Below, piece after piece: positions 241 through 15,967 of a DNA stretch of 15,967 nt. Each line of letters opens with the position of its first letter. Position 1 is the stretch's first letter. Under the pieces are notes generated by a model, which saw only the letters and a list, made by a program, of their open reading frames with translations, was not told the DNA's origin and did not search any database. The position numbers and the translations under genes were made by a program. Source of the stretch: Opitutales bacterium (GTDB lineage Bacteria; Verrucomicrobiota; Verrucomicrobiia; Opitutales; Intestinicryptomonadaceae); contig JAJXPD010000032.1 in NCBI GenBank assembly GCA_021641325.1, positions 1 through 15,967 of the forward strand. The letters are read 5' to 3'.

Positions 241-241
241 A

Positions 242-838: not shown

Positions 839-862
839 AAAGTCGGAATGTTTGTAGTTTTA

Positions 863-900
863 CGCATCGGGGCGCACCCGTCCCCGAAGGAGCGAATGCG
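863..900 (-). other. Intercistronic stem-loop between dctP and dctQ
   Basis: Within the 86-base gap, an outer CGCAT (863-867) pairs with ATGCG (896-900), and an inner TCGGGG (867-872) pairs with CCCCGA (882-887). T867 can be used by only one of the two stems. No T-run follows in the direction of transcription, so it does not look like a terminator. A hairpin just after the binding-protein gene could stabilise the dctP part of the message, as described for some other transport operons; that role is inference. Confidence 0.4.
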
Positions 901-924
901 CCCGACAGTTTTAGAAAACGCGGT

Positions 925-2007: not shown

Positions 2008-2014
2008 TTTATTG

Positions 2015-2021
2015 TCCTTCC
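2015..2021 (-). promoter_or_regulatory. Ribosome binding site of dctP
   Basis: GGAAGGA on the minus strand, seven bases before the ATG at 2007. It decides the start at 2007 over the in-frame Met16 and is one of the few clear Shine-Dalgarno sites in the window. Confidence 0.75.
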
Positions 2022-2036
2022 GTTTTTAGGAGTAAA

Positions 2037-2855
2037 TTAGAAGCCTATCGACGTACCCACACCGAACCAGATGTTGTTTTCCTTGCCCGCGACAGCCGCG
2101 TAGCCGCCGTCGGAGTCGTTATTGCACGCATAGCGCACGCCCGCAGAGAGTTTCCAGTAGTCGCTTACGGCAACCGTCGCGCCCGCCGAGAAGCCAGCGT
2201 AGGCGTAGCCGCCGACTTCGGTCATTCCGCCGATGTAGTCGGCATATCCGCCGAACGCCGCCAAGTCTATCGTGCCCCAGTTTTCGCCGAGAACCCATTT
2301 TGTGATTGGCGCGGAATACGAAAGCCCCGCCTCTAATACAGTGCCCGAATATGTCAGGTTGTAGAAGCCGCTGACGTAGGGCGAAACTGCGAAATCGCCG
2401 AGATATTCGGAGGTGTCGTAGCTGAGCGAAAGTTTAAGCTCGTTCTCGACGGTCGAACCCGACGACGGATACGTGTACGCAGTGTAGCCGAAATCTACGG
2501 TGAAGTTTTCGATTGAATACGTCGCGCCCGCGTAGAGGTCGTTCTCGCCGTATCCCGCGCCGTCGGTCGAATAGCAGCCCCACCAGCCGATGTACGCGCC
2601 GAAGCCCGCGCCGATGTCGTAGGCGACGTCCACTTCGGGGCAAACTACCGAGCCGGCAAGCTGTTTTCCCCTGAAAATGAACTCGCTCTCGTATCCGACG
2701 GACGCGGACGCCGAGAATTTGGAAAGGACATCGCTTGCAACCTGCATGTCGGAAAGCGAATTTATTTCCTTTTCGGGTGTTGAAGCGCCGGCCGCAAATG
2801 CGGACGCGGCGGCGATTGTCAATGCGCAGGTCAATGCTGTAATTTTGTTTGCCAT
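2037..2855 (-). CDS. Outer-membrane beta-barrel protein, TorF-like putative porin, first gene of the TRAP operon
   Basis: 272 residues. It starts with a clear signal peptide (MANKITALTCALTIAAASAFA, cleavage probably near residue 21). The mature part is full of alternating aromatic/small residues typical of amphipathic strands, e.g. ASVGYESEFIFRGKQLAG, DLYAGATYSI, VDFGYTAYTYP, and it ends in Phe (GVGTSIGF), the usual recognition signal for outer-membrane insertion. The FRG segment and the Y-G-Y strand pattern recall the TorF / gcw_chp putative porin family. The reading frame extends upstream to 3110, but that part is arginine-rich, lacks a signal peptide and would cover the sigma-54 promoter, so the ATG at 2855 is chosen despite no clear Shine-Dalgarno site. 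It precedes dctP by 29 bases, suggesting it opens the outer membrane to the same substrate. Barrel: high confidence; family name: moderate. Confidence 0.8.
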   Translation of the reverse strand: MANKITALTCALTIAAASAFAAGASTPEKEINSLSDMQVASDVLSKFSASASVGYESEFIFRGKQLAGSVVCPEVDVAYDIGAGFGAYIGWWGCYSTDGAGYGENDLYAGATYSIENFTVDFGYTAYTYPSSGSTVENELKLSLSYDTSEYLGDFAVSPYVSGFYNLTYSGTVLEAGLSYSAPITKWVLGENWGTIDLAAFGGYADYIGGMTEVGGYAYAGFSAGATVAVSDYWKLSAGVRYACNNDSDGGYAAVAGKENNIWFGVGTSIGF

Positions 2856-2918
2856 AGTTTTTTTCGTTTGATGTTTGTATTCGCGTCCGCCGAGCCTCGA
2901 CGAACACAAAACCCATAC

Positions 2919-2935
2919 AGCAGAAGGCGTGCCAG
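2919..2935 (-). promoter_or_regulatory. Sigma-54 (RpoN) -24/-12 promoter of the porin-TRAP operon
   Basis: Minus strand reads CTGGCACG-CCTT-CTGCT. It matches the sigma-54 consensus YTGGCACG-N4-TTGCW at all positions but one in the -12 box. The invariant GG (2932-2933) and GC (2920-2921) are separated by exactly 10 bases, as the class requires. Transcription should start near 2908, giving a leader of about 53 bases before the porin ATG. A promoter of this class needs an enhancer-binding activator; none is encoded in the window. Confidence 0.72.
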
Positions 2936-2963
2936 TTTTTGGGACGCGCACAAAGACGCTAAA

Positions 2964-2976
2964 AATCAAAAACATG
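2964..2976 (+). promoter_or_regulatory. IHF-like site between activator site and sigma-54 promoter
   Basis: Plus strand reads AATCAA-AAAC-ATG, one mismatch from the E. coli IHF consensus WATCAA-N4-TTR. It is centred about 62 bases upstream of the predicted start, where IHF bends DNA in known sigma-54 promoters. The position is persuasive, but the site is AT-rich and degenerate, so chance is possible. Confidence 0.35.
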
Positions 2977-3043
2977 GCGCGGAAACGCCGATTCGCGGCG
3001 GCATGCGGACAAAACCGACCGCAACATTTTCGTATGCGCAAAC

Positions 3044-3055
3044 TACAAATTTGTA
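3044..3055. promoter_or_regulatory. Candidate upstream activator site (palindrome)
   Basis: Perfect 12-base palindrome TACAAATTTGTA, centred about 142 bases upstream of the predicted sigma-54 start, within the usual range for enhancer-binding proteins. It stands out in an otherwise GC-rich region. No second copy was seen nearby, so its role as activator site is inference. Confidence 0.35.
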
Positions 3056-3108
3056 AAACGGCAACGCCCCGGCTTCGCGCAAAGCCGCAATGCGCAATGC
3101 GCGGGCAC

Positions 3109-3139
3109 AAAAAAACTCCCCGAATTTTTCGGGGAGTTT
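3109..3139 (-). terminator. Intrinsic terminator of the ABC transporter gene
   Basis: Perfect 12-bp stem: AAACTCCCCGAA (3113-3124) pairs with TTCGGGGAGTTT (3128-3139) around a 3-base loop. On the minus strand a run of seven T follows (complement of 3109-3115). It lies 49 bases after the ABC stop codon. In the plus direction no T-run follows, so it is one-directional. Confidence 0.9.
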
Positions 3140-3187
3140 AAAATGAGCGCAAGCCGCTCGGCTGAAATTCGGGAACCGCGTCGGGAA

Positions 3188-4927
3188 TTATTTTGCCGAC
3201 TGCTTTTCGTAGAGCCTGCGGTATTCGGGGCAGCGGTCGATAAGCTCGGAGTGCGTGCCGTAGTCCACTATCGCGCCGTCCTTGAAAACTATTATCATGC
3301 GGACGTTGCGGATTGTGCTGAAACGGTGCGCGATGATTAGCATGGTTCTGTCGCGCATGAGGGAATCGACCGCCTTCTGAATAAACGCCTCGCTGTTGAC
3401 GTCGAGCGCGGAGGTAGCCTCGTCGAGAACGATGAACGGCGGATTTTTCAGGAACACGCGGGCGAGCGCGATGCGCTGTTTCTGCCCGCCGGAGAGCCTG
3501 TCGCCGCGCTCGCCGACGACCGTTTCGTAGCCGTCGTCGAGGCTTTCGATGAACTCGTGCGCATAGGCGGTCTTTGCGGCCGCTATGACTTCGTCGCGAG
3601 TGGCGTCGGGACGCGCGGCGAGAATGTTGTTGTAGACGGTGTCGTTGAACAAAACGGGATACTGCGGAACGCTTCCGAGATTTTCGACGAAATCGGCGGA
3701 GGAAATGTCGCGCAAATCGACGCCGTCGATTTTCACCGAGCCTGAGACGGGATCGTACAAACGCATCGCAAGCCGCGCGAACGTGCTCTTGCCCGCGCCG
3801 CTTTCGCCGACGAGCGCGCAGCTCGTGCCTGCGGGAATCACGATGTTCACGCCTTTGAGAACGGTCTTGTTGTTGTACGCAAATTCGACGTTTTCGAAGC
3901 GCAGTTCGCCGCGTACGCGCCCGATTTTCACGGGGTTTGCGGGTTCGGGAACGGTCGTCCGGTAGTCGAGCACGGCGGAGAGGCGTTCGACAAGCGGCAT
4001 GATTTTCACGAAGTCGGTAAACATTCGCGCTATTCTCTTAATGGGGTCGATTGTGAAATAGAGCGCGATGCCGATTGCCGAAAAGGTCGGGAAGTCGATG
4101 TCGCCGAAATACGCGTAGACGAAAGTTATCGAAACCATCGTAGCCGCGAGGAACTCCATGAACGGCTGCTGCATAAGCTCGAACTTCGCCATTTTAAGCG
4201 AGTACCATTTGACCTCGCCGTTCATGTTGTCGAACTTTTTTATCTGCGGCTGTTGGAGGGCGAAGACCCTGACTTCGTGCGCGGCGTCGAGGTTTTCGCC
4301 GAAGAGCTGCGCCATGTCGCTTAGCTTCACCTGTGCCTTGCCCGCGTAGAGCTTCATGTTTTTGCGTATCATCTGGACGGGCAGAATGCAAAACGGCACA
4401 GCCACCAAGAACACGAGAAGAAACACAACCTGCCCTTTCGTACAGCAAAGATAAAGCAGATAGCCCAACGCGCCCACAACCTGCAAGGGCTGTCTGAATA
4501 TTTCCGAGGAGAACGAAAGCAGGACATTCTGGACGGAGACGGTGTCGCTTGTAAGGCGCGTAAGGAGGTCGCCCGTGGTGAACTTGTCGAAGAACGCGAT
4601 TGGGTAGCTCTGGATTCTGCGGAAAATGTCGCCTTTGAGAGTCCGCAGAATTTCGAGCGACGAATAGGTCATCAAATATCCGCTGAGGTAGCCGAAGATT
4701 GCCCTCAGCGCGAAAATCGTCGGCAGCAGCATTGCGATTCCGAAAATGTACCAGAGCGACTGCTCCTCGACGGTTTTCTCCATGAAGATTTTGCGGAGAA
4801 CCTTGTCGAAAATAACGGGCATGCCGAAGCCGCTGCACGCGCCGAACAACGCGCCGAAAATCACCGCCGCCACGAGCTGCGGCAGGCACGGCTTGACGTA
4901 TACTTTGAATCTGAGAAGTTTTTTCAT
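3188..4927 (-). CDS. ABC half-transporter, MsbA-like (fused membrane and ATPase domains)
   Basis: 579 residues, the normal length for an MsbA/LmrA-type exporter that works as a homodimer in the inner membrane. The N-terminal domain (about 1-320) has the six-helix layout, with hydrophobic segments near 15-38, 60-85, 145-165, 168-185 and 255-275, and an intracellular TGDLLTRLTSD segment (118-128). The ATPase domain (about 335-579) has Walker A GESGAGKST (374-382), Q-loop Gln422, signature LSGGQ (478-482), Walker B FIVLDEA with catalytic Glu503, and H-loop His534. All are intact. It stands alone between a terminator downstream and the divergent receptor operon, with a 196-base shared upstream region; no clear Shine-Dalgarno site is present. 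Lipid A-core or other lipid export fits the family, but drug or peptide export cannot be excluded, so no gene symbol is given. Confidence 0.92.
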   Translation of the reverse strand: MKKLLRFKVYVKPCLPQLVAAVIFGALFGACSGFGMPVIFDKVLRKIFMEKTVEEQSLWYIFGIAMLLPTIFALRAIFGYLSGYLMTYSSLEILRTLKGDIFRRIQSYPIAFFDKFTTGDLLTRLTSDTVSVQNVLLSFSSEIFRQPLQVVGALGYLLYLCCTKGQVVFLLVFLVAVPFCILPVQMIRKNMKLYAGKAQVKLSDMAQLFGENLDAAHEVRVFALQQPQIKKFDNMNGEVKWYSLKMAKFELMQQPFMEFLAATMVSITFVYAYFGDIDFPTFSAIGIALYFTIDPIKRIARMFTDFVKIMPLVERLSAVLDYRTTVPEPANPVKIGRVRGELRFENVEFAYNNKTVLKGVNIVIPAGTSCALVGESGAGKSTFARLAMRLYDPVSGSVKIDGVDLRDISSADFVENLGSVPQYPVLFNDTVYNNILAARPDATRDEVIAAAKTAYAHEFIESLDDGYETVVGERGDRLSGGQKQRIALARVFLKNPPFIVLDEATSALDVNSEAFIQKAVDSLMRDRTMLIIAHRFSTIRNVRMIIVFKDGAIVDYGTHSELIDRCPEYRRLYEKQSAK

Positions 4928-5123
4928 GGAAAATAAGCTTTGGATTTTTCGTAAAATCCACCCGATTAGTCAAGTTTTTACGCATGCGCGGGCGCGGCGC
5001 ACAGCCCGAACAAAGCGATGGCGCATTCGCAAGGCGGCGCAAAAACCGCGGGACGGTTTTGAGGGGGCGCGGCGTAAAAATCGGCTTGAAACGGAACGCC
5101 GCTTTGCTACGCTGTCTCGGAGT
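4928..5123. promoter_or_regulatory. Divergent intergenic region between the ABC transporter and the receptor operon
   Basis: The 196 bases hold two inverted repeats. One is TGGATTTT-TCGT-AAAATCCA (4941-4960), 8-bp arms close to the ABC start; the other is AAAACCG-CGGGA-CGGTTTT (5042-5060). A weak sigma-70-like pair for the receptors is TTGAAA (5086-5091), 16 bases, TACGCT (5108-5113), with three of six -10 matches. No strong promoter is visible for the ABC gene. The first repeat could be an operator or a leader hairpin; neither is established. Confidence 0.35.
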
Positions 5124-7337
5124 ATGAAAGCTTCGATGAAGTCGTCTTTGCTGGGGCTGGGGATTTCCGTTACGGTCGTCCCCGCGGTCGCCATGTTCGC
5201 CTTCATCGCGCTGATGGGCTCGGACATCGTAAAAACCGCGAACTCCGAATTCCGCGCCGCCGCCCTCGAAGCCGCGCGTCAGGCGACGGTGGACATCCGC
5301 CAAATGTGCGACGTAATCGAAATCTCCGACGACGTCGCGACGGAGGCGGCAAAAAGCATAATCTCGGAGGAAATCGGCAAGCTCGGCAAAATCTCCGTCG
5401 CAAGCAAGCCGACGTCGTTTTCGGTGTTCCCGCTGAAATCGCCCGAAGCCAAGCAGATTGTGGCGGCGCGGCTGATAAGAATGGGGAACGACGAAATCTC
5501 GCCCGACGACTTCGACGGAAAGCTCCCCAAGCTGCTCGAATCGCTCAAAGCGCGGCTGTTTTGCGACATCTCGGTATACTCGCCGATTCCGGAGTCTGAC
5601 TTTTTTGTAAACGTTGCAAGCACCCTGACCTACCCCACGGGCGAAAGCTATGCCGGCGGCACGGTGTCGCCAAAAGACGGCGGCGGGCTGGGCGCGCTGT
5701 TCGCAAAGACGCTGGAAACAAAAAGCCCCGCGGGCGGGCTTGTAAAAATCAACTCGGAGCACTACTCGGCAAACTGCGTTCCGCTCGAACGCGACGACGG
5801 CCAAATAGGCGCGGTTGCCGTGTTCGGCTCGCCGATGCCGGCGGTGGCGGAGCTTGAAAAATACCTGCAAAACTCGAACGTGGGCGAAACCGGCTCGGTG
5901 TGGGTTATCGACATTTCGGACCCGTCGTCGCCCGCGCTCACCGTCTCGCGCGACAACTCCGCGGCGGGAAAAATCGAGGACGACCCCATCGAAGCCCGAC
6001 GCGCCTTCCTGCGCCAGATTATAGAAAAGAGCCAAAACCTGCGCGACGGCGAAATAGGAGTGGAAACCGTAAACATTCCCTCGAAAGACAGGCGGCGCGA
6101 CATTGTAAGGCTTGTAACCTACACAAACTACAAGCCGTGGAAGCGCATAATCGGAACTTCGCTCGACGCCGACGAATTTTCGGGCAGCGAAACCGCCCTG
6201 CTCTCGCAGATAGACTCGTTTTCGAAAACGATAGTCTACGTCGGCGCGGTGTTCACGGTTTTGGCAATCGGGATTTCGTGGATTTTGGCGTCGCAGATGT
6301 CGAGGCCGCTGAAAATTCTGCGCCGCGTGGCGCGGCACCACTCGCGCGGGAACATGGCGGCGGCGGAGTCCGAACTTGCCGCCTACCGCGACAGGGGCGG
6401 CGCGAGAATCGCCGAGTTCGACAGCCTGATTCTCGCAATCTACGACATGACAATCGGGCTTTCCGATTTGATAAAATCGATACGCGACGACGGCGAATAC
6501 GTAGCCGACGGCGCAGTGCAGATTTCGGAGCTTGCGCGGTCGCTCGAATCAATCTCGCATTCGGAGGTGGCGTCGATGAGGCGCGTCGCGGCGACGGGGA
6601 AATCGATTTCGTTTTCGGCGGACGCAATCAACAGGGCGGCGCGTTCGTCGGCGGCGCGGGTGCGCAAAACGCTCGACAGCAGTCGCGAAGGCGGCGACAA
6701 CCTGCTGCTTCTAAAACGCAACTACGACGCGCTTTTCGCCGCGACGGAAAACGTCGCCGAAAGGCTCTCGGTAATCAACGGCAACGCCGAAAAAATCACG
6801 GCGGTTGTCACGGCAATCGGCGAAATCAACAAGCGCACGAACCTGCTTTCGCTCAACGCCTCGATAGAGGCGGAAAAAGCGGGGGAAGTCGGGCTTGGCT
6901 TCGCGGTAGTGGCGCGGCAGATACGCAGGCTCGCCGACAAAACCTCGAAAGCGGCTTCCGACATCGAAAACGCCGTAAGGCAGATGCAGTCGGCGGTAAA
7001 TTCGGGCGTGATGGAAATGGACAGGTTCGGGGCGAGCATGCGCCAGAGCCTTAAAATCATTCTGGAAACGGCGGACTCGCTTTCGAGGGTCGTGGGCGAC
7101 ATCGAGGGCGTCGGTCCGAAGTTCGAAAACATCGCGGGGCGCATCGCGGGCATGTCGGACAGCGCGCGCAGAATCAGCGAAACTATGACGGAGCTTTCCG
7201 CAAATTCGGAACGCATGCGCGACACCGTCTTCGAATTCAAGTCGGCGACAAGCTCGCTCGACGCCACGAGCGACTCGCTTCTCGACGAAGTTTCGCGCTT
7301 CAAAACCGCGGGGGAAGGAGGCGTTGCGCGAAAATGA
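5124..7337 (+). CDS. Chemoreceptor-like protein 1 (double Cache sensor, HAMP, WspA-like signalling domain)
   Basis: 737 residues. A transmembrane helix (about 9-31) is followed by a periplasmic sensor (about 35-365) with features of a Cache_3-Cache_2-type domain, including NVGETGSVWVIDIS (252-265) and YKPWKRIIGTS (336-346). A second helix (about 368-389), a HAMP with the usual proline (SRPLKILRR, 393-401) and a long helical signalling domain follow. The tip TNLLSLNASIEAEKAGE (572-588) and the following GFAVVARQIRRLADKT and MQSAVNSGVMEMDRF segments are strikingly like Pseudomonas WspA. No pairs of methylatable Glu/Gln and no C-terminal pentapeptide were seen. The start at 5124 is chosen because it aligns without gaps to the start of the downstream paralogue; the frame is open upstream to 4746 but that part is not conserved. 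The stop overlaps the next start by four bases. The ligand is unknown. Confidence 0.9.
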   Translation: MKASMKSSLLGLGISVTVVPAVAMFAFIALMGSDIVKTANSEFRAAALEAARQATVDIRQMCDVIEISDDVATEAAKSIISEEIGKLGKISVASKPTSFSVFPLKSPEAKQIVAARLIRMGNDEISPDDFDGKLPKLLESLKARLFCDISVYSPIPESDFFVNVASTLTYPTGESYAGGTVSPKDGGGLGALFAKTLETKSPAGGLVKINSEHYSANCVPLERDDGQIGAVAVFGSPMPAVAELEKYLQNSNVGETGSVWVIDISDPSSPALTVSRDNSAAGKIEDDPIEARRAFLRQIIEKSQNLRDGEIGVETVNIPSKDRRRDIVRLVTYTNYKPWKRIIGTSLDADEFSGSETALLSQIDSFSKTIVYVGAVFTVLAIGISWILASQMSRPLKILRRVARHHSRGNMAAAESELAAYRDRGGARIAEFDSLILAIYDMTIGLSDLIKSIRDDGEYVADGAVQISELARSLESISHSEVASMRRVAATGKSISFSADAINRAARSSAARVRKTLDSSREGGDNLLLLKRNYDALFAATENVAERLSVINGNAEKITAVVTAIGEINKRTNLLSLNASIEAEKAGEVGLGFAVVARQIRRLADKTSKAASDIENAVRQMQSAVNSGVMEMDRFGASMRQSLKIILETADSLSRVVGDIEGVGPKFENIAGRIAGMSDSARRISETMTELSANSERMRDTVFEFKSATSSLDATSDSLLDEVSRFKTAGEGGVARK
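6833..6875 (+). repeat. Receptor tip repeat, copy 1
   Basis: 43 bases encoding the hairpin tip of receptor 1. It matches 9058-9100 in receptor 2 at 41 of 43 positions, including third codon positions. Confidence 0.8.
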
Positions 7338-9547
7338 AAATTCCGCTGAAAAAGACGCTCGCGGCTTTCTCCGTGGGGCTTTCCGCGCTTCCGGTAATCG
7401 TCATCGGGCTTCTCGTGCTGATGATGAACAGCGACATCAGGGAAATCGTAAACTCCGAATTCGACAAAATCGGCGCGCGCGCGACGCGCCAAATTGTGGA
7501 AGACACCGTGCGGATTTGCAAAATAATCCGCCGCACGCAGCTCGACGAAGACGACAAGGCGCGGGACGCCGTCCGCGAACGCCTCTGGAATATCGGCTTT
7601 CCGAAACTGCTCGACAAAAAGGCGAAAATCCGCGTGGCGTCGCAAATGACGCCGACGGAATTCAAGACGGCGGAAATTCCCGCAATGGCTTTCGGCAACA
7701 GCGAAATAGTCTTGAAGATGTCGCCCGACGGCTCGCTCGAAAGGGCGTCGGGACGCGCCGCGGAAATCCTCGAACAGCTTAAAACCGAGACGGGGCTTGA
7801 CTTCGCGATACTCCAAAAAATCGACGCCGACGGCAACATGCTGCGCATAGCATCGACCGCGCTCGACGCCGAGGGAACGCCCTTTGTGGGCACATACATT
7901 CCCGCAAACGGCGGCTACGACGACGGCGCGATTGTCCGCACACTGCTTGCCCGCAAGGCGTTTTCGGGAATTTCGCGCGGGGGGGCGGTCAACTTCATCG
8001 CAAACTACGAGCCAATCATAGACCAGTACGGCGACGTTATCGGGGCGGTGGCGTTCGGACGCCCGCAGGCGTCGATTGCGTACCTGCTAAAATATTTCGA
8101 AAACATAAGAATAGGCAACACGGGCTACGTCTGGGCAATAGAGCTTGTCGGGCGCGGCGAGTCGGTTGTGAGGATTTCGCGCGACGGCAAGCGCAACGGC
8201 TTCATCGTCGAGGGCGACACGTTCAGGGAACGGCGCGAGGCGACGCTCGAAATCATAGCCTCCGCCGTCGCGCAGGGCGAAAAAATCACCGTGCGCGACT
8301 ACAAGTCGGGAGCGGAGCGCAGCCTCACCGACCTCATAACCGCCTACACATATTTCAAGCCGTGGAACCTCGTGATAGGGTCGAGCGGGTACAGGAACGA
8401 CTACGCCGCGGGGGTGGAAAGAATAGACGCCTCCGCGCGAAACTTCGTCTTCATGCTCGTGCCCGTCGGTCTTGCGATGCTCTTCTTTGCGGGCTTTGCG
8501 GCGTGGCTTGCGGGTGTGCGCGGCGTCCAAATGGTGGACGGGCTAAAACGCGCAATCGGGAAAATCAAAGGCGGCGACATTCCCGCCGCGCAGGCGGAAC
8601 TTGCGGAACTTGCCGACCCGCGCCAGTGGAGCAACTCGGAAATTTTCAGGCTGTCGCTCGCGCTCGACACAATGTCGGCAAACATCTCGAAGCTCGTGGC
8701 AAAAGTTCAGGACGCAGGCGAAAACCTCGCCCAAAGCGCGGCGAAAATCTCGTCGGGCGCGGAGGACATAGCAAAGACCACAAGCGCGAGGGCGGAAAGG
8801 CTCTCCGACATTCTCGGCACGATAGACTCAATTTCAAACTCGGCGTCGCTGCTAAACGCCGACGCGCTCGACGCGGCGAAAAACATAGAGGCGTCGCTCG
8901 AAATCATGAGCGACGGCGGCAACCTGCTCGGCAGGCTCAACGAAAACGCGGCAATTCTGCTCGGCGCGGCGGACTCCGTTTCGGCGAGGCTTGCGGTCAT
9001 AAAGGACAAGACCGAGCGCATTCTCGCGGCAATGTCCACAATCAACGCGGTCAGCGAGCGCACGAACATGCTTTCGCTCAACGCCTCGATTGAGGCGGAA
9101 CGCGCAGCGGACGCAAACGGCGGCTTCGCGGCGGTGTCGGCGGAAATCACGCGGCTTGCCGACCGCACGGCGGTCGCGGCAATGAACGTCTCGCGCATGG
9201 TCGCCGAAATGGACGACTCCGTAAACCTCGGCGTGGGCGACATGGACGACTTCGCCGCAAGAATGAAATCGAACTCCGAAATGATAAGCAAAGTTCACGA
9301 CAACCTCGCGTCGGCGGAGGGGCAGATTGCGGAGCTTGGCCCGAAGTTCGAGTCGCTCGCGGAGGACGTTTCGGGGCAGGAGAAAAACGCGGGCGCTATC
9401 GCCTCGCAAACGCAGTCGCTCGCGGAACTTGGCGAGAAAACCCGCGCGCAGGTCGACGCTCTCAGGGAAACCACGGTGTCCATTTCGCGCACGTCGGAGG
9501 CTCTCGCCGCAAAGGTTTCGAGCTTCGCGGTAATCCGCAAAAAGTAG
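7334..9547 (+). CDS. Chemoreceptor-like protein 2, paralogue with altered tip and HAMP
   Basis: Also exactly 737 residues, same plan as the gene before it: helix 1 (about 9-31), periplasmic sensor with IRIGNTGYVWAIE (248-260), ISRDGKRNGF (271-280) and YFKPWNLVIGSS (330-341) typical of Cache_3-Cache_2, helix 2 (about 361-384), HAMP-like segment and helical signalling domain. The ATG overlaps the previous stop as ATGA, so translation is coupled. Two departures are visible. The HAMP entry (GVRGVQMVDGLKRAIG, 385-400) lacks the usual proline. The tip reads TNMLSLNASIEAERAADANGGF (567-588), with the canonical AGE-x-GRGF changed to AAD-A-NGGF. No pentapeptide tail is present. It could be a modified partner receptor rather than a full chemotaxis receptor; that is inference. 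Confidence 0.89.
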   Translation: MKIPLKKTLAAFSVGLSALPVIVIGLLVLMMNSDIREIVNSEFDKIGARATRQIVEDTVRICKIIRRTQLDEDDKARDAVRERLWNIGFPKLLDKKAKIRVASQMTPTEFKTAEIPAMAFGNSEIVLKMSPDGSLERASGRAAEILEQLKTETGLDFAILQKIDADGNMLRIASTALDAEGTPFVGTYIPANGGYDDGAIVRTLLARKAFSGISRGGAVNFIANYEPIIDQYGDVIGAVAFGRPQASIAYLLKYFENIRIGNTGYVWAIELVGRGESVVRISRDGKRNGFIVEGDTFRERREATLEIIASAVAQGEKITVRDYKSGAERSLTDLITAYTYFKPWNLVIGSSGYRNDYAAGVERIDASARNFVFMLVPVGLAMLFFAGFAAWLAGVRGVQMVDGLKRAIGKIKGGDIPAAQAELAELADPRQWSNSEIFRLSLALDTMSANISKLVAKVQDAGENLAQSAAKISSGAEDIAKTTSARAERLSDILGTIDSISNSASLLNADALDAAKNIEASLEIMSDGGNLLGRLNENAAILLGAADSVSARLAVIKDKTERILAAMSTINAVSERTNMLSLNASIEAERAADANGGFAAVSAEITRLADRTAVAAMNVSRMVAEMDDSVNLGVGDMDDFAARMKSNSEMISKVHDNLASAEGQIAELGPKFESLAEDVSGQEKNAGAIASQTQSLAELGEKTRAQVDALRETTVSISRTSEALAAKVSSFAVIRKK
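9058..9100 (+). repeat. Receptor tip repeat, copy 2
   Basis: Second copy of the 43-base tip segment at 6833-6875, differing at two positions (C to A, A to T). Confidence 0.8.
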
Positions 9548-9587
9548 CGGACGCAAAAAAGGACGGAAAAGAAACGAACGCGAAACC

Positions 9588-9601
9588 GCGCCCGCGGGCG
9601 C
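9588..9601. repeat. GC-rich perfect palindrome downstream of receptor 2
   Basis: GCGCCCGCGGGCGC is a perfect 14-base palindrome, 40 bases after the receptor stop codon and one base before operator 1. No T-run follows directly. It may help the operator/terminator hairpin behind it, or may be chance in GC-rich DNA. Confidence 0.35.
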
Positions 9602-9621
9602 AAGTGAACACATGTTCACTT
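9602..9621. promoter_or_regulatory. Operator 1 of the cyclase-TetR operon (also terminator-like)
   Basis: AAGTGAACA-CA-TGTTCACTT: 9-base arms, perfectly symmetric around a 2-base centre, the size of a typical TetR-family operator. It lies seven bases upstream of the -35 box. In the plus direction it is followed by TTTTT, so as RNA it also resembles an intrinsic terminator for the receptor pair. Confidence 0.72.
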
Positions 9622-9627
9622 TTTTTC

Positions 9628-9656
9628 TTGACGGGTGAACGAGTGTTCTTTTTTAT
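9628..9656 (+). promoter_or_regulatory. Sigma-70-type promoter of the cyclase-TetR operon
   Basis: The -35 box is TTGACG (five of six matches), the spacer is 17 bases and the -10 box is TTTTAT (9651-9656, four of six). Transcription would start at about 9662-9664, only a few bases before the first ATG at 9666. The spacer is occupied by operator 2. Confidence 0.6.
9634..9651. promoter_or_regulatory. Operator 2, inside the -35/-10 spacer
   Basis: GGTGAACG-AG-TGTTCTTT shares GTGAAC and TGTTC with operator 1 in the same register. Only the core GAAC/GTTC is symmetric, so it is probably the weaker site. Its centre is 31 bases from the centre of operator 1, about three helical turns, placing both on the same face. 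Binding here should block RNA polymerase. Confidence 0.6.
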
Positions 9657-9665
9657 CCGCGCAAT

Positions 9666-11630
9666 ATGGAAGAAAAATCGCACATGCAAAAGGCGTCCGA
9701 CTGGCTTTTCGAACGCCAACTCCCCGAAGGCTACTGGAACGCGCACCTCGAAACAAACTGCTGCATGGAGGCGCAGTGGCTGATGGCGTGCAAATTCTGC
9801 GGAATCGAAAGCGGAAAAAACGCGGGAATCATAGAATACATTTTGAATTCGCAACGCCACGACGGCAGCTGGGACGTCTACTACGGCGCGGAAAACGGCG
9901 ACGTCAACACGACGCTCGAATGCTACTACGCGCTGCGCATTTTCGGCTTCCCAAAGGACGACCCGCGCATGGCGGCGGCGCGGGAATGGCTGCTGAAATA
10001 CGAGTGGTACAAGCACGTGAGGGTGTTCACAAAATACTGGCTCGCGCTTTTCGGCGAATGGGACTGGTCTAAAACGCCCGCGCTTCCGCCCGAAATAATC
10101 TACTTTCCGAAATGGTTTCCGTTCAACATATACCGCTTTGCGGCGTGGGCGCGGGCGACAATCATGCCGCTTTGCGTGGTGACGTCAAAAAAACCCGTCA
10201 AGACGCTCGCGCCGGAGCTTAGAATAGACGAGCTTTTCCCCGTCGGGCGTGAAACCGCCTACGAAATGCGGAAAACCGACGACGGCGAAAAGTTTTCGAC
10301 TAAAAAAATATTCCTCGCCGCCGACAAAATCTTCCATTTCTTCAACGACAAATCGGGCGACTCCGCCCTGCGCAAACGCGCAATCAAAGACGCCATGGAC
10401 TGGATTATAGAGCATCAGGACGACGACGGCTTTTGGGGCGGAATCCAGCCGCCGTGGATTTACGGCATAATTGCGATGCACATTCTGGGCTATCCGCAAA
10501 CGCAGGAAAACATGGCAAAAGCCGTCAACGCCGTCAATCTGCACTGGACGGAGCAGACGGAAAAAGGCACGCGCATAAAGGCGAGCGAAAGCCCCGTGTG
10601 GGACACAATGCTTGCCGTAAACGCCCTGCTCGACGCCCGCGCGAGCGTTTCAGACTCCCGACTTTCGAAAGCCGTCGACTACCTGCTCGAAAACGAAAAC
10701 CGCTACTACGGCGACTGGTCCGAAACCGTCGGGCGCGGAGTCAAGCCGAGCGGGTGGTCGTTCCAGCGGGCAAACAAATTCTACCCCGACATCGACGACA
10801 CCGCGGTCGCGATTGTCGCACTCCTGAAATACCGCGACGCCCTGCCGAAGTCGGATCCGCGCGCCGCGAAAATTTCGGAAGCCATCGGGCGCGCGGCGAA
10901 ATGGATTGTCGCAATGCAGTCGAAAAACGGCGGCTGGGCGGCCTTCGACCGCGACAACACAACCGAGCTTGTGACGAAAATCCCGTTCTGCGACTTCGGC
11001 GAAGTGCTAGACCCCCCGAGCGTAGACGTCAGCGCGCACGTCGTGGAGGCCCTGCTCAAATGCGGCTATTCAAAAGACTGCGAGTGCGTCTCGCGCGGCA
11101 TAAAATTCATTCTCGGCGAGCAGGAGGACGACGGCTCGTGGTTCGGCCGCTGGGGAATCAACTATATCTACGGCACTTGGTGCGCTATGACCTCTCTCAA
11201 AGCCGCGGGCTTCGAGTACTCGTCGCCCGAAATCAAACGCGCGGCGGACTGGCTTGCGGGCAGGCAGAACCCCGACGGCGGCTGGGGCGAGCGGGCTTCC
11301 ACCTACATGCAGCCTCGCAGCAAAAGCGGCTCGACCGCCTCGCAGACGGCGTGGGCGTTGATTGCGCTGATGTCGTTCGAAACGCCCTACGGCGAAAATA
11401 TCCGCAGGGGCTTGGACTACCTCAAAAACACGCAGACACCCGACGGAACTTGGGTTGAGGCCGAGTACACGGGGACGGGCTTCCCCGGATACGGGCTGGG
11501 CGCGAAAGTCGATTTGCGCAACGGCGCGCCGCTTCCGCAGGGCAAGGAGCTGTCGCGCGGATTCATGCTGCGCTACGGTTATTATTGCCATTACTTCCCG
11601 ATTATGGCACTCTCGCGCGAAATACAATGA
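9666..11630 (+). CDS. shc: Squalene-hopene cyclase family protein
   Basis: 654 residues, normal for class II triterpene cyclases that turn squalene into hopene, a hopanoid precursor acting at the membrane. The catalytic DxDD acid motif is DIDD (365-368), after QRANKFYP. Conserved blocks include GGWAAFDRDN (412-421), PFCDFGEVLDPP (430-441) and GRWGINYIYGTW (484-495). At least six QW-type repeats are seen, such as RQLPEGYW, HQDDDGFW, QSKNGGW, QEDDGSW, RQNPDGGW and TQTPDGTW. The C-terminus has GTGFPGYG (593-600) and ELSRGFML (618-625). The first ATG is only a few bases after the predicted transcription start; Met7 (9684), with GGAAG upstream, is an alternative start. No squalene synthesis or hpn gene is adjacent. 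The stop overlaps the TetR start as ATGA. A variant cyclase with another product cannot be excluded. Confidence 0.93.
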   Translation: MEEKSHMQKASDWLFERQLPEGYWNAHLETNCCMEAQWLMACKFCGIESGKNAGIIEYILNSQRHDGSWDVYYGAENGDVNTTLECYYALRIFGFPKDDPRMAAAREWLLKYEWYKHVRVFTKYWLALFGEWDWSKTPALPPEIIYFPKWFPFNIYRFAAWARATIMPLCVVTSKKPVKTLAPELRIDELFPVGRETAYEMRKTDDGEKFSTKKIFLAADKIFHFFNDKSGDSALRKRAIKDAMDWIIEHQDDDGFWGGIQPPWIYGIIAMHILGYPQTQENMAKAVNAVNLHWTEQTEKGTRIKASESPVWDTMLAVNALLDARASVSDSRLSKAVDYLLENENRYYGDWSETVGRGVKPSGWSFQRANKFYPDIDDTAVAIVALLKYRDALPKSDPRAAKISEAIGRAAKWIVAMQSKNGGWAAFDRDNTTELVTKIPFCDFGEVLDPPSVDVSAHVVEALLKCGYSKDCECVSRGIKFILGEQEDDGSWFGRWGINYIYGTWCAMTSLKAAGFEYSSPEIKRAADWLAGRQNPDGGWGERASTYMQPRSKSGSTASQTAWALIALMSFETPYGENIRRGLDYLKNTQTPDGTWVEAEYTGTGFPGYGLGAKVDLRNGAPLPQGKELSRGFMLRYGYYCHYFPIMALSREIQ

Positions 11631-12208
11631 AGGACACGAGGGAAAAAATACTCGAAACGGCGTTCGCGCTGCTCGTAAAAAACGGCTACAACGGCGTTTC
11701 GATAGGCGACATCACAAAGGCGCTCGAAATCACCCGAAGCCTGCCATACCGCTACTTCCCCTCGAAGCGCGATCTGCTCTTCGAGGCGTGCAAGCTCTAC
11801 TACTACGAACGCTTTTTCCCCGAAAGATTCGACGCGGGAAAAGCGTCGCTAAAAGAGCTTCTCGAAGTGATTTCGCAAAACATGGAGCGCATAATTTTAG
11901 GGCTGTCGCGCTCGCTCGGCAGGGAGCTTTCGGTGTTCGACTACAACGTAATGTACTTCGACGCCCTCCGCAACGAGCCGCGTTTCAGACGCTACATGCG
12001 CTCGAAAATGCTCGAGCTGCGGGCAATAGCGGAGAACGCCGTAAAAAATTCCGAAATAAAAAAGGGGATTTCCGCCGAATTTGTCGAACGCGTTTTTACC
12101 GACATTTGGAGCCGCTGCGCCCATGTGCAGGACAACGCGTCGAACCGCGTAAATCTTGCGCGAATCCTCGACGACATCGGCACATTCTACAAGCTCGTTT
12201 CGGCGTAG
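11627..12208 (+). CDS. TetR-family transcriptional regulator, likely repressor of its own operon with the cyclase
   Basis: 193 residues, typical TetR size. The DNA-binding domain occupies about residues 1-50: TREKILETAFALLVKNG, then GVSIGDITKALEITRSLPYRYFPSKRDLL with the recognition helix near ITRSLPYRYF. The remaining helical part (about 55-193) is the ligand-binding and dimer domain and matches no subfamily that I recognise. The start chosen overlaps the cyclase stop by four bases (ATGA). The frame is open 42 bases further upstream inside the cyclase gene, but the helix-turn-helix begins directly after the chosen Met. Being the last gene of a unit whose promoter holds two TetR-type palindromes, it most likely binds those sites. 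The inducer is unknown; a hopanoid, isoprenoid or membrane-stress ligand is speculation. Confidence 0.9.
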   Translation: MKDTREKILETAFALLVKNGYNGVSIGDITKALEITRSLPYRYFPSKRDLLFEACKLYYYERFFPERFDAGKASLKELLEVISQNMERIILGLSRSLGRELSVFDYNVMYFDALRNEPRFRRYMRSKMLELRAIAENAVKNSEIKKGISAEFVERVFTDIWSRCAHVQDNASNRVNLARILDDIGTFYKLVSA

Positions 12209-12285
12209 CGCAATCCGCGCCGAGAGCGGGCGGAACGAAACGCGCCCTGCCCCGCAGCCGCTGCGCGAAGCGTTTTACCGAAACA

Positions 12286-12358
12286 AAAAAATCCGCACCC
12301 TGCCCTTTTCTGCCCGCCCCGTTTCGGGGCGCGGTTCGCGGGAGCTTGCGGATTTTTT
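12286..12358. terminator. Nested bidirectional terminator between tetR and the pyrE fusion
   Basis: Outer arms AAAAAATCCGCA (12286-12297) and TGCGGATTTTTT (12347-12358) are perfect 12-base complements. Inside sits a second hairpin, GCCCCG-TTT-CGGGGC (12316-12330). The outer arms give a T-run in both directions, which suits the two converging transcripts ending at 12208 and 12369. The outer loop of about 49 bases is large, so the working structure may be the inner hairpin or a branched form. Confidence 0.65.
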
Positions 12359-12368
12359 GCGCGTTTTT

Positions 12369-13442
12369 CTACGAGCCGGGGTGGCACGCGGGAATCGACG
12401 CAAGCTCGGCGGGAATCGCGTCGGGCGCGTAGGTCGGGAACGAAAATTCGAGGAGGCTCACGCAGGGCACTTCGAACTTCGCCTTGCCCTCGCTTCTATC
12501 GACAAGAACCGCGACCGCCGCGGGCTTGCCGCCGTTCGCCTTGACGATGTCGATGCATTCCTGAACGCGTCCGCCGCGCGTGATTACGTCTTCCACAATC
12601 AGGATTTTCTCGCCGTCGCCGATTTTGAAGTTGCGGCGCAGAACGAGGTTGCCGTCCTGCTTTTCCGCAAAGATGAAGCGCTTGCCGAGCTGTCTTGCGA
12701 CTTCCTGACCGAGCACAAGCCCGCCCATCGCGGGGGCGAGAACGGTGTCGCATTCAACGCCCGCGAGTTTCTTTGCGAGCATTGCCACAAGCTCCGACAC
12801 TCTGTCCATGTGCTCGCAAACGCGCGCGCACTGGAAGAAATGTCCGCTGTGGAGGCCGCTGCGGAGGATAAAATGCCCCTCCATGAGCGCGCCGGTGTCC
12901 CTGAATATTTCGAGAATTTTTTCGTTGTCGTTCATAGGTTTTATAGTCTGTTCGAAAGTCCAGGAGAGTTCGCCCGCCCGCGAGCAGTCGGCGCGGAGAA
13001 CCGCCATGCCGCCGTCGCAAAATCTTTCGCGGACGTCCCAGAGAAGTTTTTTGTCGGTTTCGGGAATTTTGATTTTTCCGCCCCGAATTTCGGAGTAGTC
13101 GAAAAACGCGAAGCCGCCCTCGCCGATGTCGGGCGGGAGCTTTTCGAGACGCTTTTTGCACTCGAAAAGGAACATCAGCCAGTGCGCGCTGCCCTCGTAG
13201 CCGCGCTCGCTCGTCATCGAGAACAGGTGGAGGTCGGACGCCTCCAATTCAAGCCCGATTTCCTCGCGCGTTTCGCGGATTGCGCATTCAAACGGCGACT
13301 CGCCGTCCGCCATTTCGAGCTTGCCGCCAATCGGACTCCAGCAATCTTTGTTCGGCTCCTTCGCGCGGCGGATAAGCAGAAACTTTCCGTCCGCGTTTCG
13401 GACGAAAACAAGCACGCTGATTTTAAACGGAAGCTTCTCCAT
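12369..13442 (-). CDS. pyrE: NUDIX hydrolase-orotate phosphoribosyltransferase fusion
   Basis: 357 residues in one frame. Residues 1 to about 168 are a NUDIX hydrolase: FKISVLVFVRNADGKFLLIRR, WSPIGGKLE (35-43) and a box ending RETREEIGL (56-64), with two extra residues in the first part of the box. Residues 170-357 are an orotate phosphoribosyltransferase of the Thermus-type PyrE group: GALMEGHFILRSGLHS (184-199), APAMGG (236-241), EKQDGNLVLRRNF (260-272) and the PRPP-binding VEDVITRGG (283-291). This half makes orotidine monophosphate in pyrimidine synthesis. The NUDIX substrate is unknown. No stop or overlapping start separates the halves; Met170 could allow internal initiation but has no Shine-Dalgarno site. 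The ATG at 13442 is chosen because an earlier one (13508) would overlap purU by 58 bases with no NUDIX-like sequence. It is last in the dapL-purU unit. Confidence 0.88.
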   Translation of the reverse strand: MEKLPFKISVLVFVRNADGKFLLIRRAKEPNKDCWSPIGGKLEMADGESPFECAIRETREEIGLELEASDLHLFSMTSERGYEGSAHWLMFLFECKKRLEKLPPDIGEGGFAFFDYSEIRGGKIKIPETDKKLLWDVRERFCDGGMAVLRADCSRAGELSWTFEQTIKPMNDNEKILEIFRDTGALMEGHFILRSGLHSGHFFQCARVCEHMDRVSELVAMLAKKLAGVECDTVLAPAMGGLVLGQEVARQLGKRFIFAEKQDGNLVLRRNFKIGDGEKILIVEDVITRGGRVQECIDIVKANGGKPAAVAVLVDRSEGKAKFEVPCVSLLEFSFPTYAPDAIPAELASIPACHPGS

Positions 13443-13450
13443 TTCGAAAA

Positions 13451-14302
13451 TCAGTCGAAGATTACGGTCTTGTTTTTGTAGGCGAGAATGCGCCCCTCGA
13501 TGTGCCACCTTACGGCGTCGGCGAGAACCGAGCGTTCAAGCTCGCGCCCCTTGCGCATCAAATCCTCCACGCTGTTGCGGTGGTTGACGGGAGCTACCGA
13601 CTGCGCGATAATAGGGCCTTCGTCCAAATCCTTCGTGGCGTAGTGCGCGGTTGCGCCTATGAGCTTTACGCCGCGGGCGTACGCCTTGTGGTAGGGCTTT
13701 GCGCCCGCGAACGCGGGCAGGAAGCTGTGGTGGATATTGATGACGGGGCACCCCACGTTGTCGATGAAATCGCCGCTTAGAATCTGCATGTAGCGCGCCA
13801 TCACGACAAGCTCCGCGCCGCTCTCGCGGATTATCCGCATTTGCTCGGCTTCGGTTTCGGGCTTTGTCTCTTTTGAAATCGGCGTGTAGTGGAATTTCAG
13901 CCCGAACATTTCGCTCATTTCGCGCAAGTCCTCGTGGTTCGAGATTACGCAGGCGATGTCGCAGTGAAGCTCGCCAGAGCGGCAGCGCAAAACGATGTCG
14001 CTGAAACAGTGCTCGAATTTCGAGACCATCACCGCGATTTTCGGGCGCACCGACGACTTCTGCACCGACGCCTCCATTTCCAAATCCGACGCGGCGAACT
14101 CCCTGAACAGGCGCATTTCCTCGTCTACGTCGCCCGCGGGAATCCACTCGACGCGCTGGAAGAAAATGCCCTCCTGACGATCTCGGTGCTGGTCGGCGTG
14201 GAGAATGTTTCCGCCGCGGGCGTAAATCCAGCCCGACACGCGGGCGACTATGCCCGCGCGGTCGTGGCCGTGCAACAATGCAACAATTCTTTCTTCTGAC
14301 AT
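13451..14302 (-). CDS. purU: Formyltetrahydrofolate deformylase
   Basis: 283 residues, normal for PurU, which hydrolyses 10-formyltetrahydrofolate to tetrahydrofolate and formate and so balances one-carbon units for purine synthesis. The N-terminal ACT-type domain (about 5-80) begins RIVALLHGHDRAGIVARVSGWI. The C-terminal formyltransferase-fold domain holds VINIHHSFLPAF (187-198), giving the catalytic Asn189 and His191, and GATAHYATKDLDEGPII (216-232), giving Asp227. All appear intact. It starts 54 bases after dapL and ends eight bases before the NUDIX-OPRT start, so all three are probably co-transcribed. No clear Shine-Dalgarno site is visible. A fully regulatory or other hydroxymethyl/formyl transferase role is unlikely given the ACT plus deformylase architecture. 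Confidence 0.94.
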   Translation of the reverse strand: MSEERIVALLHGHDRAGIVARVSGWIYARGGNILHADQHRDRQEGIFFQRVEWIPAGDVDEEMRLFREFAASDLEMEASVQKSSVRPKIAVMVSKFEHCFSDIVLRCRSGELHCDIACVISNHEDLREMSEMFGLKFHYTPISKETKPETEAEQMRIIRESGAELVVMARYMQILSGDFIDNVGCPVINIHHSFLPAFAGAKPYHKAYARGVKLIGATAHYATKDLDEGPIIAQSVAPVNHRNSVEDLMRKGRELERSVLADAVRWHIEGRILAYKNKTVIFD

Positions 14303-14323
14303 ATCACTAAACTTGCTTGCGCG

Positions 14324-14344
14324 GCGCGCGGACTTTGCGCGCGC
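14324..14344 (-). other. GC-rich stem-loop between dapL and purU
   Basis: GCGCGCG (14324-14330) pairs with CGCGCGC (14338-14344) around a 7-base loop, inside a 54-base gap made almost only of G and C. No T-run follows, so it is not an intrinsic terminator. It could affect message stability between the two genes. Confidence 0.4.
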
Positions 14345-14356
14345 GGCGCGGTTTTG

Positions 14357-15601
14357 TTAAAACTCGAATTTCGAGCGTCCCATGCGGCGGGCGATTTCCT
14401 CTACTACCGCCTTTTCGCCGTCCTCTCCGTGCGCTTCGAAAGTTACGGAGAAACGGACGAACGCGCCTGCGTCGTCCCACGGAACGGTGCTAATGAGGTG
14501 CTCGGAAATCATCCACTGCGAGAAGTCCTCGCCGGTCTTGAACTCCGTGCGCGAGCCGTCGGGCTGGATTGCCGACTTGGGCGCGGGCATATAGAGGAAG
14601 AATCCCGCCTTGGGCTTGCGCGGCGAGAAGCCGAGGTTTTTGAGAACGCCGACAAGCAAATCCATTCTGCGCGAGTACTTGGCGGCAATCGCGCGGGTTA
14701 TCGACGGATTTTCAAGACCCTTTGCCGCCGCGAGCTGAATGCCGAGGAACTGTCCCGAGTCCGTATTGTCCTTGACATCGCCGTACGCCTTTACGATTAG
14801 CGGATTCCCGCAGACCCAGCCGATGCGCCAGCCCGTCATGTTGTGGCTTTTCGAGAGCGAGTGAAGCTCTACCGCGACGTCCTTTGCGCCCTCTATTTGG
14901 AGAATCGACAGCGCGTTGCCGTCGAACGTAAGCGACGCGTACGCGGCGTCGGAAACCACTATTATGTTGTTGCGCTTCGCAAACGCCACAAGCTTTTCGA
15001 AAAATTCGCGCGTGGCGCTCGCGCCCGTCGGGTTGTTGGGGTAGTTTACGACAATCGCCTTGGCGCGTTTGAGAACGTCGGCGGGAATCGAATCGAGGTC
15101 GGGCAGGAAGCTGTTTTCCGCCGAAAGTTTGAGGTTGTAGACTTCGCCGCCGAGGTATTTTGCATGCGTGCCGAAAACGGGATAGCCTGGGGTCGTCATG
15201 ATGACGACGTCGCCGGGGTTCACAAAGCAGTTCGGCAGAATGCTGAGGGCGGCTTTCGAGCCTATCGAGTGGAGGATTTCGGTGTCGGGGTCAAGCTCGA
15301 CGCCGAAGACCGCCTTCATGTATCCCGCGGCGGCAACCTTGAAGTCGCGACCGCCGTTGTCGGCATAGCCCCTGTTTGCGGGGTCTTTCGCGGCGGCGTA
15401 GAGGGCTTCGACCACTTCGGGGAAAGCCATTTCGTCGGGCTCGCCCACGCCCATGTCGATGAGCGCGACGTCGGGCTTCGCGGCCTTTGCGGCGCGCTTT
15501 GCGCGTTTGATTTTCTCGAACTTGTAGATGGCATTGCTTTTGCCGTAGTTCGCGCCGCCGATTCTTTCGGCGAAGAGGTTTTGAATGTATGAGTCGCTCA
15601 T
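14357..15601 (-). CDS. dapL: LL-diaminopimelate aminotransferase
   Basis: 414 residues, the usual length for DapL, a PLP enzyme that converts tetrahydrodipicolinate directly to LL-diaminopimelate for lysine and peptidoglycan. The start YIQNLFAERIGGANYGKS and IYKFEKIKRAK are characteristic of DapL. Fold-type I aminotransferase marks are PGYPVFG (138-144), VVNYPNNPTG (184-193), SDAAY (217-221), the PLP-binding Lys251 in SLSKSHNMTGWRIGW, and the arginine of FVRFSVTF (371-378). DapL is known from Chlamydiae and Verrucomicrobia, among others, which agrees with the suggested host. It is first in a unit with purU and the NUDIX-OPRT fusion and divergent from panC, with 83 bases between the two starts. 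No clear Shine-Dalgarno site or convincing promoter was found in that gap. Confidence 0.95.
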   Translation of the reverse strand: MSDSYIQNLFAERIGGANYGKSNAIYKFEKIKRAKRAAKAAKPDVALIDMGVGEPDEMAFPEVVEALYAAAKDPANRGYADNGGRDFKVAAAGYMKAVFGVELDPDTEILHSIGSKAALSILPNCFVNPGDVVIMTTPGYPVFGTHAKYLGGEVYNLKLSAENSFLPDLDSIPADVLKRAKAIVVNYPNNPTGASATREFFEKLVAFAKRNNIIVVSDAAYASLTFDGNALSILQIEGAKDVAVELHSLSKSHNMTGWRIGWVCGNPLIVKAYGDVKDNTDSGQFLGIQLAAAKGLENPSITRAIAAKYSRRMDLLVGVLKNLGFSPRKPKAGFFLYMPAPKSAIQPDGSRTEFKTGEDFSQWMISEHLISTVPWDDAGAFVRFSVTFEAHGEDGEKAVVEEIARRMGRSKFEF

Positions 15602-15670
15602 TGAATCCGTCTTGTTTTTAATGGGTTGATTTTTTTAAAAAAGTGTCAAGTATGAAAGGAAATAAGAGAG

Positions 15671-15675
15671 AAGGA
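15671..15675 (+). promoter_or_regulatory. Ribosome binding site of panC
   Basis: AAGGA, nine bases before the ATG at 15685. It supports this start over an in-frame ATG at 15652, whose extra 11 residues are not PanC-like. Confidence 0.7.
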
Positions 15676-15684
15676 CTAAAATCA

Positions 15685-15967
15685 ATGAAAATAATAAGCT
15701 CTCCCAAAGAAATGAAGGAATTTTCCGCGAACGCGAAAGCCGTAGGCAAAAAAATCGCGCTCGTACCCACCATGGGCGCACTGCACGACGGGCATTTGAG
15801 CCTCATCGACAAGGCGAAATCGCTGGCGGACGTAGTGGTCGTGTCGGTTTTCGTCAACCCCACGCAGTTCGGCCCGAACGAAGACTACGACAAATACCCG
15901 CGCCAGCTCGAAGCGACTCGCACCCCGTGCAGGCTGCCAATCTTGGGGGGAGTGGGTGGTGAATTTC
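15685..15967 (+). CDS. panC: Pantothenate synthetase, N-terminal part (cut by window edge)
   Basis: 94 codons are present. PanC joins pantoate and beta-alanine, using ATP, in the last step of pantothenate (vitamin B5, coenzyme A precursor) synthesis. The translation [10 protein letters not shown] continues to [19 protein letters not shown] (22-40), with the nucleotide-binding HDGH (34-37), and [19 protein letters not shown] (55-73), all diagnostic of the family. After Ala77 (base 15916 on) the sequence [17 protein letters not shown] no longer resembles PanC, although the frame stays open to the edge. This may be sequence error at a contig end (see findings). The start is set by AAGGA nine bases upstream. 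It is transcribed divergently from dapL. Confidence 0.9.

Follow-up and report, generated by a model that had tools for sequence, protein, structure and literature searches.

Hopanoids are cholesterol-like membrane lipids made via squalene-hopene cyclase, and to our knowledge the transcriptional control of their amount seems thinly described. The question of such control is raised by a stretch of 15,967 nucleotides (nt) from an Opitutales bacterium (contig JAJXPD010000032.1, positions 1 to 15,967; called here the window), in which the gene for a squalene-hopene cyclase, SHC-A, is preceded by two palindromes and followed by the gene for a TetR-family regulator. Does this regulator act on the cyclase gene, and on its own, through the palindromes? 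On the comparison of sequences reported here we consider it very probable that an autoregulated TetR repressor controls SHC-A via the two operators, is released by a hydrophobic molecule, and that in most carriers SHC-A supplements a second cyclase, SHC-B.

The promoter (Table 1) was read directly. The two operators begin 31 base pairs (bp) apart and have the element GTGAAC-N3-TGTTC in common; 8 bases lie between operator 1 and the -35 box, and operator 2 occupies 16 bases of the 17-base spacer. A preliminary description of this DNA had reported the same pair of palindromes, one just 5' of the -35 box and one in the spacer, together with a TetR start overlapping the cyclase stop by ATGA, and all of this was found again; only the gap in its motif was miscounted, being written as N4, one base too long. 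Even when two mismatches are allowed, that N4 pattern matches neither site. At the level of sequence, operator-like palindromes lie over the promoter of an operon which itself encodes a TetR protein. The consensus promoter scan did not list the window promoter, its -10 box being too weak. The distance from TTGAC to the ATG is only 36-40 nt in 8 of 9 SHC-A loci, too short for much of a leader, so the cyclase is likely translated from a leaderless mRNA, with its start codon about 0-4 nt past the expected transcription start.

Both proteins belong to the families named. The cyclase scores 642.9 bits against TIGR01507 (squalene-hopene cyclase; cut-off 431.1) and has the DXDD motif, and PDIDDT followed by AV, GV or AM was present in all 13 SHC-A sequences compared. 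The regulator, analyzed in the profile searches and the structure model without its first Met (from 11630), scores 45.4 bits against TetR_N (PF00440; cut-off 24) and combines the N-terminal helix-turn-helix with an all-helical ligand domain in a fold predicted at a local distance difference test score (pLDDT) of 91.8. The ten named TetR families listed from NCBIfam, KstR, PsrA, AcrR and AcuR among those considered, were all under cut-off, the best being RefZ with 37.1 bits against 180.

The relatives of the cyclase were collected by a scan of genome contigs, from which the best 80 of 149 confirmed stretches were used, several Opitutales genomes being present twice (genomes are coded G and loci L). 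A quick tree of 67 sequences, with support from the approximate likelihood-ratio test SH-aLRT and a midpoint root, places SHC-A in a group of 24 rows (support 99), 21 of them together with 3 from genomes labelled Pseudomonadota or Deltaproteobacteria, and beside it the second type SHC-B (15 loci, 17 rows, support 99), a division that may go back to a duplication or to an early transfer; the catalytic motifs are intact in both types. A cyclase was found in 18 of the 19 genomes of the family of G001, and SHC-A in eight of them (G001-G007, and G010, where it is cut off). Seven of these eight also have SHC-B, while G006 has one cyclase found; SHC-A is an extra cyclase in most carriers. Two cyclase fragments (L122 and L123, in G136 and G207) show SHC-B-type residues near the C-terminus, as judged by eye. 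The squalene/phytoene synthase family is present in 18 of the 19 genomes and HpnH is over cut-off in 16, and hopanoid synthesis is therefore likely in these genomes.

The TetR gene lies directly 3' of SHC-A in all seven other loci that can be assessed (L001-L007), and these are exactly the TetR profile matches among the 80 cyclase loci. The contig of G010 (L025) stops within the cyclase, so that its TetR is not visible. The family was absent from the 15 SHC-B loci (L010-L024, of which L024 ends with the gene) and from the non-Opitutales relatives of SHC-A at L008 and L009. These last two cyclases come from metagenome-assembled genomes labelled Pseudomonadota and Deltaproteobacteria, and either transfer between phyla or misbinning may account for them. 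The downstream flank is common to the window and L001 and the upstream flank to L003 and L004, the others looking different; the cyclase and the TetR gene therefore behave as one unit.

Nine SHC-A promoters were compared (window, G001-G007 and G010; that of G002 was joined over two contig ends sharing 22 bases), and seven have a strict operator pair around TTGAC with a spacing of 30-33 bp. Among the seven relatives which keep the gene pair, the palindromes persist in full in five, G005 keeps site 2 plus a damaged site 1 and G006 keeps one site; the eighth relative, G010, has both. The loss of the palindromes from such relatives, which the preliminary description had named as a refutation, is thus not what is seen. 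Dinucleotide shuffling of the nine 130-bp upstream regions, 1000 times per region, gave zero GARC-N4-GYTC pairs 28-36 bp apart. In 1.16 megabases (Mb) of loci, which were chosen for a cyclase or a TetR gene and are hence biased, and in which some stretches are counted twice, 19 strict pairs occur at 13 distinct promoters, seven of SHC-A and six beside a FadL-linked TetR gene, while loose pairs with one mismatch occur at three unrelated loci (L042, L050, L071) in 1.24 Mb.

The FadL-linked genes belong to a sister branch of the regulator. The TetR alignment was searched against 372 genomes of the order, 16 of which have relatives at E up to 1e-15. Fourteen TetR genes of the second branch (L090, L092-L104) adjoin a gene for a FadL-like porin, recognized from the motif EQGA[AS]N common to the open reading frames, and two porins that were profiled score 190 and 250 bits against PF03349. 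If one mismatch in the 16 core positions is tolerated, a pair enclosing TTGAC is present in 12 of the 14 FadL promoters, at a main spacing of 28-31 bp; 6 of the 14 loci have a pair free of mismatches. Most of the FadL promoters with pairs point away from the TetR gene.

The operators differ in class and the TetR proteins differ with them. SHC-A operators are of class GAAC in the window, G001, G006 and G010 and of class GAGC in G002, G003, G004, G005 and G007. Residue 26 of the TetR (VS[I/T]GDI), at the start of helix 2 in the predicted model, is I or V beside GAAC operators wherever it can be seen (the TetR of G010 is not visible) and T beside GAGC operators. The same five GAGC genomes offer a contrast within one cell, their SHC-linked TetR having T26 and GAGC sites and their FadL-linked TetR having V or I and GAAC sites, although the FadL sites of G007 are imperfect and were identified by eye, and G003 has one strict site.

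Two genomes keep an SHC-type TetR gene without SHC-A. In G011 (Marseille-Q1082) it stands alone; in G027 (L132) it follows two chemoreceptor genes, which is the gene order of the window minus the operators and the cyclase. A GARC-N4-GYTC site within 400 bp upstream was present in only 2 of the 15 SHC-B genes (L010-L024, one per genome), namely TTGAGCAACTGCTCAT at L012 in G011 and GTGAACAACTGTTCAC at L023 in G027. The two genomes with an SHC-B operator are the two with TetR but no SHC-A, an agreement expected from shuffled labels once in 105 cases on our own arithmetic. L012 had already been placed in G011 before the operator scan, and L023 was assigned to G027 after it. The classes agree as well, with T26 and GAGC in G011 and I26 and GAAC in G027. 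Full six-base palindromes of this kind are rare elsewhere and numbered five in 929 kilobases, of which one is that of L023 and three were fetched because they carry one. Three further palindromes of the GAGC class were not counted, L137 and L138 lying within long reading frames and L136 being flanked by T with no TTGAC after it. The SHC-B frame of L023 has one in-frame TAG, which may mean a pseudogene, a sequencing error or readthrough.

The preliminary description had proposed that the TetR protein represses the cyclase and itself, and this gains comparative support from the conserved pair, the operator-TTGAC-operator promoter, the tracking of operator class by the protein and the operator at SHC-B where the TetR is unlinked. 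Its picture of a self-contained unit is right for the window and fails in the two genomes just described, where the TetR is apart from any cyclase and has no operator beside it. In the mechanism which we propose, TetR would be made from the same mRNA as the cyclase, its gene being behind, and autoregulation would follow from this co-transcription. The protein would bind both palindromes, flanking the -35 box and filling the spacer, a straightforward arrangement for blocking transcription, and would exclude RNA polymerase, so that cyclase and TetR stay low. A hydrophobic molecule, such as a fatty acyl compound, a hopanoid-pathway lipid or a membrane-active amphiphile, would free TetR and turn SHC-A on, and SHC-A, adding to SHC-B as the presumed housekeeping enzyme, would bring more squalene to hopanoid when the membrane needs it.

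Table 1. Features of the cyclase-TetR unit (window positions)
Feature	Position	Strand	Remarks
Operator 1	9604-9619	.	GTGAACACATGTTCAC; perfect palindrome, arms 7-2-7; 5' of the -35 box; kept in relatives
-35 box TTGACG	9628-9633	+	TTGAC seen in 9 of 9 SHC-A promoters
Operator 2	9635-9650	.	GTGAACGAGTGTTCTT; inside the -35/-10 spacer; kept in relatives
Likely -10 box TTTTAT	9651-9656	+	17-base spacer from the -35 box
Squalene-hopene cyclase SHC-A	9666-11630	+	654 amino acids; catalytic motif PDIDDTAV
TetR-family regulator	11627-12208	+	193 amino acids; ATG at 11627; ATGA overlap (11627-11630) with cyclase stop TGA

Upstream of the unit, at 4746-9547 of the window, are two tandem genes for chemoreceptors with Cache domains (MCPsignal). 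A gene at 12372-13508 fuses a NUDIX domain to an orotate phosphoribosyltransferase (pyrE_Therm, 201.4 bits), and L001 has a frame of similar length and start.

Several observations weigh against the proposed control. G006 has site 1 only and a longer leader, and its TetR groups with the FadL branch; one TetR of the FadL branch (L091, in G136) has neither a FadL gene in its 1.5-kb flanks nor an operator. The TetR genes of G011 and G027 have no adjacent operator, and there is therefore no autoregulation there. The SHC-B operators of these two genomes are single, stand 27 and 37 bp upstream of TTGAC and lie in divergent regions; in G027, 66 bp separate the operator from the start of its divergent neighbour, a gene that could be the real target. 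A gene of similar length is divergent from SHC-B in G001 (L022), where no operator was seen. The T26/GAGC group is a single clade on the TetR tree and therefore counts as one event plus the paralogue contrast, that is, few independent observations. Single-site searches of genomes gave fewer matches than the reversed-pattern control (10 against 16 in 11 genomes, 22 against 36 in 19), and therefore no further target is claimed. As to the ligand, the sequence matches of the regulator to TetR proteins of solved structure are mostly confined to the DNA-binding domain, and the predicted fold ties among TetR structures with steroid, acyl-CoA, hormone and dye ligands; because such different ligands score about equally, the comparison of folds does not decide the ligand class, and families outside the list are not excluded by it. 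A hydrophobic or lipid-type ligand is nevertheless probable, or at least plausible, because the paralogous TetR adjoins FadL and the best solved relative is an acyl-CoA-responsive FadR. Control of the whole hopanoid pathway is a further idea which was dropped as unsupported, because no operator pair occurs at 20 squalene/phytoene synthase loci and 2 HpnH loci (L139-L160), a loose single site being present at 5 of the 22. The synthase-family genes of L139-L158 stand in tandem, and one of each pair is often in a frame of about 670-940 codons, which suggests a fused protein of the HpnD-HpnE type.

Could the palindromes serve another protein, or no protein at all? They might be bound in trans by a different regulator such as the FadL-linked TetR, the cyclase-linked TetR acting elsewhere, and the FadL operators (ATGAAC and CTGAAC, with GTGAAC in G112) do resemble the GAAC-class operators of SHC-A. 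We regard this as improbable, since the SHC-A operators of five genomes are GAGC, in step with the SHC-linked TetR, while the FadL operators there are GAAC, and where SHC-A is gone but the TetR is kept an operator of the right class lies upstream of SHC-B. It is more improbable still, to the point of being hardly credible, that the palindromes with their T-runs are merely intrinsic terminators of the upstream chemoreceptor genes. Operator 1 is terminator-like on the + strand (8 pairs, loop of 4, T-tail); the region has 10 sites of this sort, where shuffled sequences average 6.9. The 43 nt surrounding operator 1 have a folding energy of -13.6 kcal/mol (z -2.55), and it could double as a terminator in the window. 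Operator 2, however, sits within the promoter spacer, and the pair flanks TTGAC in 7 of 9 SHC-A promoters and, with one mismatch, in 12 of 14 FadL promoters, most of which point away from the TetR gene.

Two more specific proposals are compatible with repression by the linked TetR. The signal may be an amphiphile or drug that damages membranes, such as bile acids, plant saponins or cationic compounds, SHC-A being then a membrane-hardening stress gene. A cyclase of Burkholderia cenocepacia with a divergent TetR gene is described as induced by chlorpromazine, and its deletion as raising chlorhexidine sensitivity (PMC3155924); in G002 an apparent MacAB-type efflux set, judged by eye from open reading frames, lies about 1.1 kb behind the TetR gene. 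The TetR of the counterpart in B. pyrrocinia is unrelated in sequence, so that its ligand is not transferable, and the paralogue of our TetR adjoins FadL, of a lipid porin family; we take the amphiphile signal as possible and rather less likely than other signals. Cooperative filling of the operators, with two TetR dimers bound to the same face of the helix, deserves about the same tentative standing. The 31 bp are near three turns and 7 of 9 SHC-A promoters retain both sites, yet the spacing varies over 28-33 bp in the two branches, G006 manages with one site, and the layout would follow equally well if each site were filled independently, with the -35 box as anchor. The spacing, 30-33 bp in SHC-A promoters and 28-31 bp in FadL promoters, drifts by about half a helical turn, which fits poorly with the helically phased cooperativity proposed in the preliminary description.

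Cyclase-TetR pairs are in print for two other bacteria in other layouts, although the preliminary description named no known pair of this form, and the pairing as such is therefore not new. In B. cenocepacia, BCAS0167 (cyclase) and BCAS0168 (TetR) are reported as adjacent and divergent and both up on chlorpromazine; membrane protection was proposed, and loss of the cyclase heightened the sensitivity to chlorhexidine (PMC3155924). The cyclase adjoins a TetR gene there as in the window, but the layout is divergent, whereas in the window the TetR gene is behind the cyclase. One representative of this pair, in a plasmid record of B. pyrrocinia (L161), has a gap of 53 bp with no GAAC or GAGC palindrome, a cyclase 34% identical to that of the window and a TetR unrelated to ours (BLASTP E 0.53). 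No TetR gene is annotated at L163, a cyclase locus of Mycetohabitans. In Zymomonas mobilis, a pair known to us by description, ZMO1547 (TetR) and ZMO1548 (cyclase) are predicted to be co-transcribed, with cyclase control speculated only (PMC10998469), and the TetR gene comes first, unlike in the window. These separate cases suggest that the association of a cyclase with a TetR neighbour arose repeatedly, and by its sequences the Opitutales unit stands apart from the others, being well conserved and having an operator system of its own. In the literature, which was mostly surveyed without full reading, no account was found of a TetR protein binding to operators of a cyclase gene.

Among regulators of solved structure, the FadR of Sulfolobus acidocaldarius (6el2/6en8) is the first match of the window TetR (50.2 bits, residues 3-161) and that of Bacillus subtilis (3whb) the tenth (35.2 bits). 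The Sulfolobus protein is described as an acyl-CoA-tied TetR repressor which binds only four genomic sites (PMC6449355); FadR proteins act on fatty-acid breakdown genes, whereas the window TetR adjoins a hopene cyclase. DesT of Pseudomonas aeruginosa, to whose operator the preliminary description likened the palindromes at a glance, is described as a TetR protein with acyl-CoA ligands that represses a set of membrane-lipid genes (PMC3536700), and no chain of this name is among the best 60 of 256 solved-structure matches. A parallel in promoter layout is AcuR of Rhodobacter sphaeroides, a TetR repressor encoded in a leaderless operon whose promoter is overlapped by an inverted repeat (PMC3017554). 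It differs from our case in that one inverted repeat is described, the pathway is acrylate metabolism and the TetR gene is first; the window TetR scores 22 bits against the NCBIfam AcuR model, whose cut-off is 247.

The mechanism is a conventional one and its evolutionary behaviour is what is notable. The unit is compact and testable, combining an extra cyclase with operators and a candidate repressor, and the GAAC and GAGC classes in one cell would be a natural case of paralogous repressors separating their DNA codes. Marseille-Q1082 is apparently cultured, and the one cyclase found in it is the predicted target of its TetR. A wider picture, to which we give a little less than even chances, is a two-branch lipid switch in which the FadL porin and hopanoid cyclization would share one promoter design, the branches, once split, being insulated from each other in one lineage by the I-to-T change of the DNA-reading head together with the GAAC-to-GAGC change of the operators, and the TetR being wired to the other cyclase where SHC-A is absent, which would keep hopanoid synthesis under its control. 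If true, this switch would act as a homeostat that keeps the bacterial analogues of sterols in balance, with a purpose like that of eukaryotic sterol sensing.

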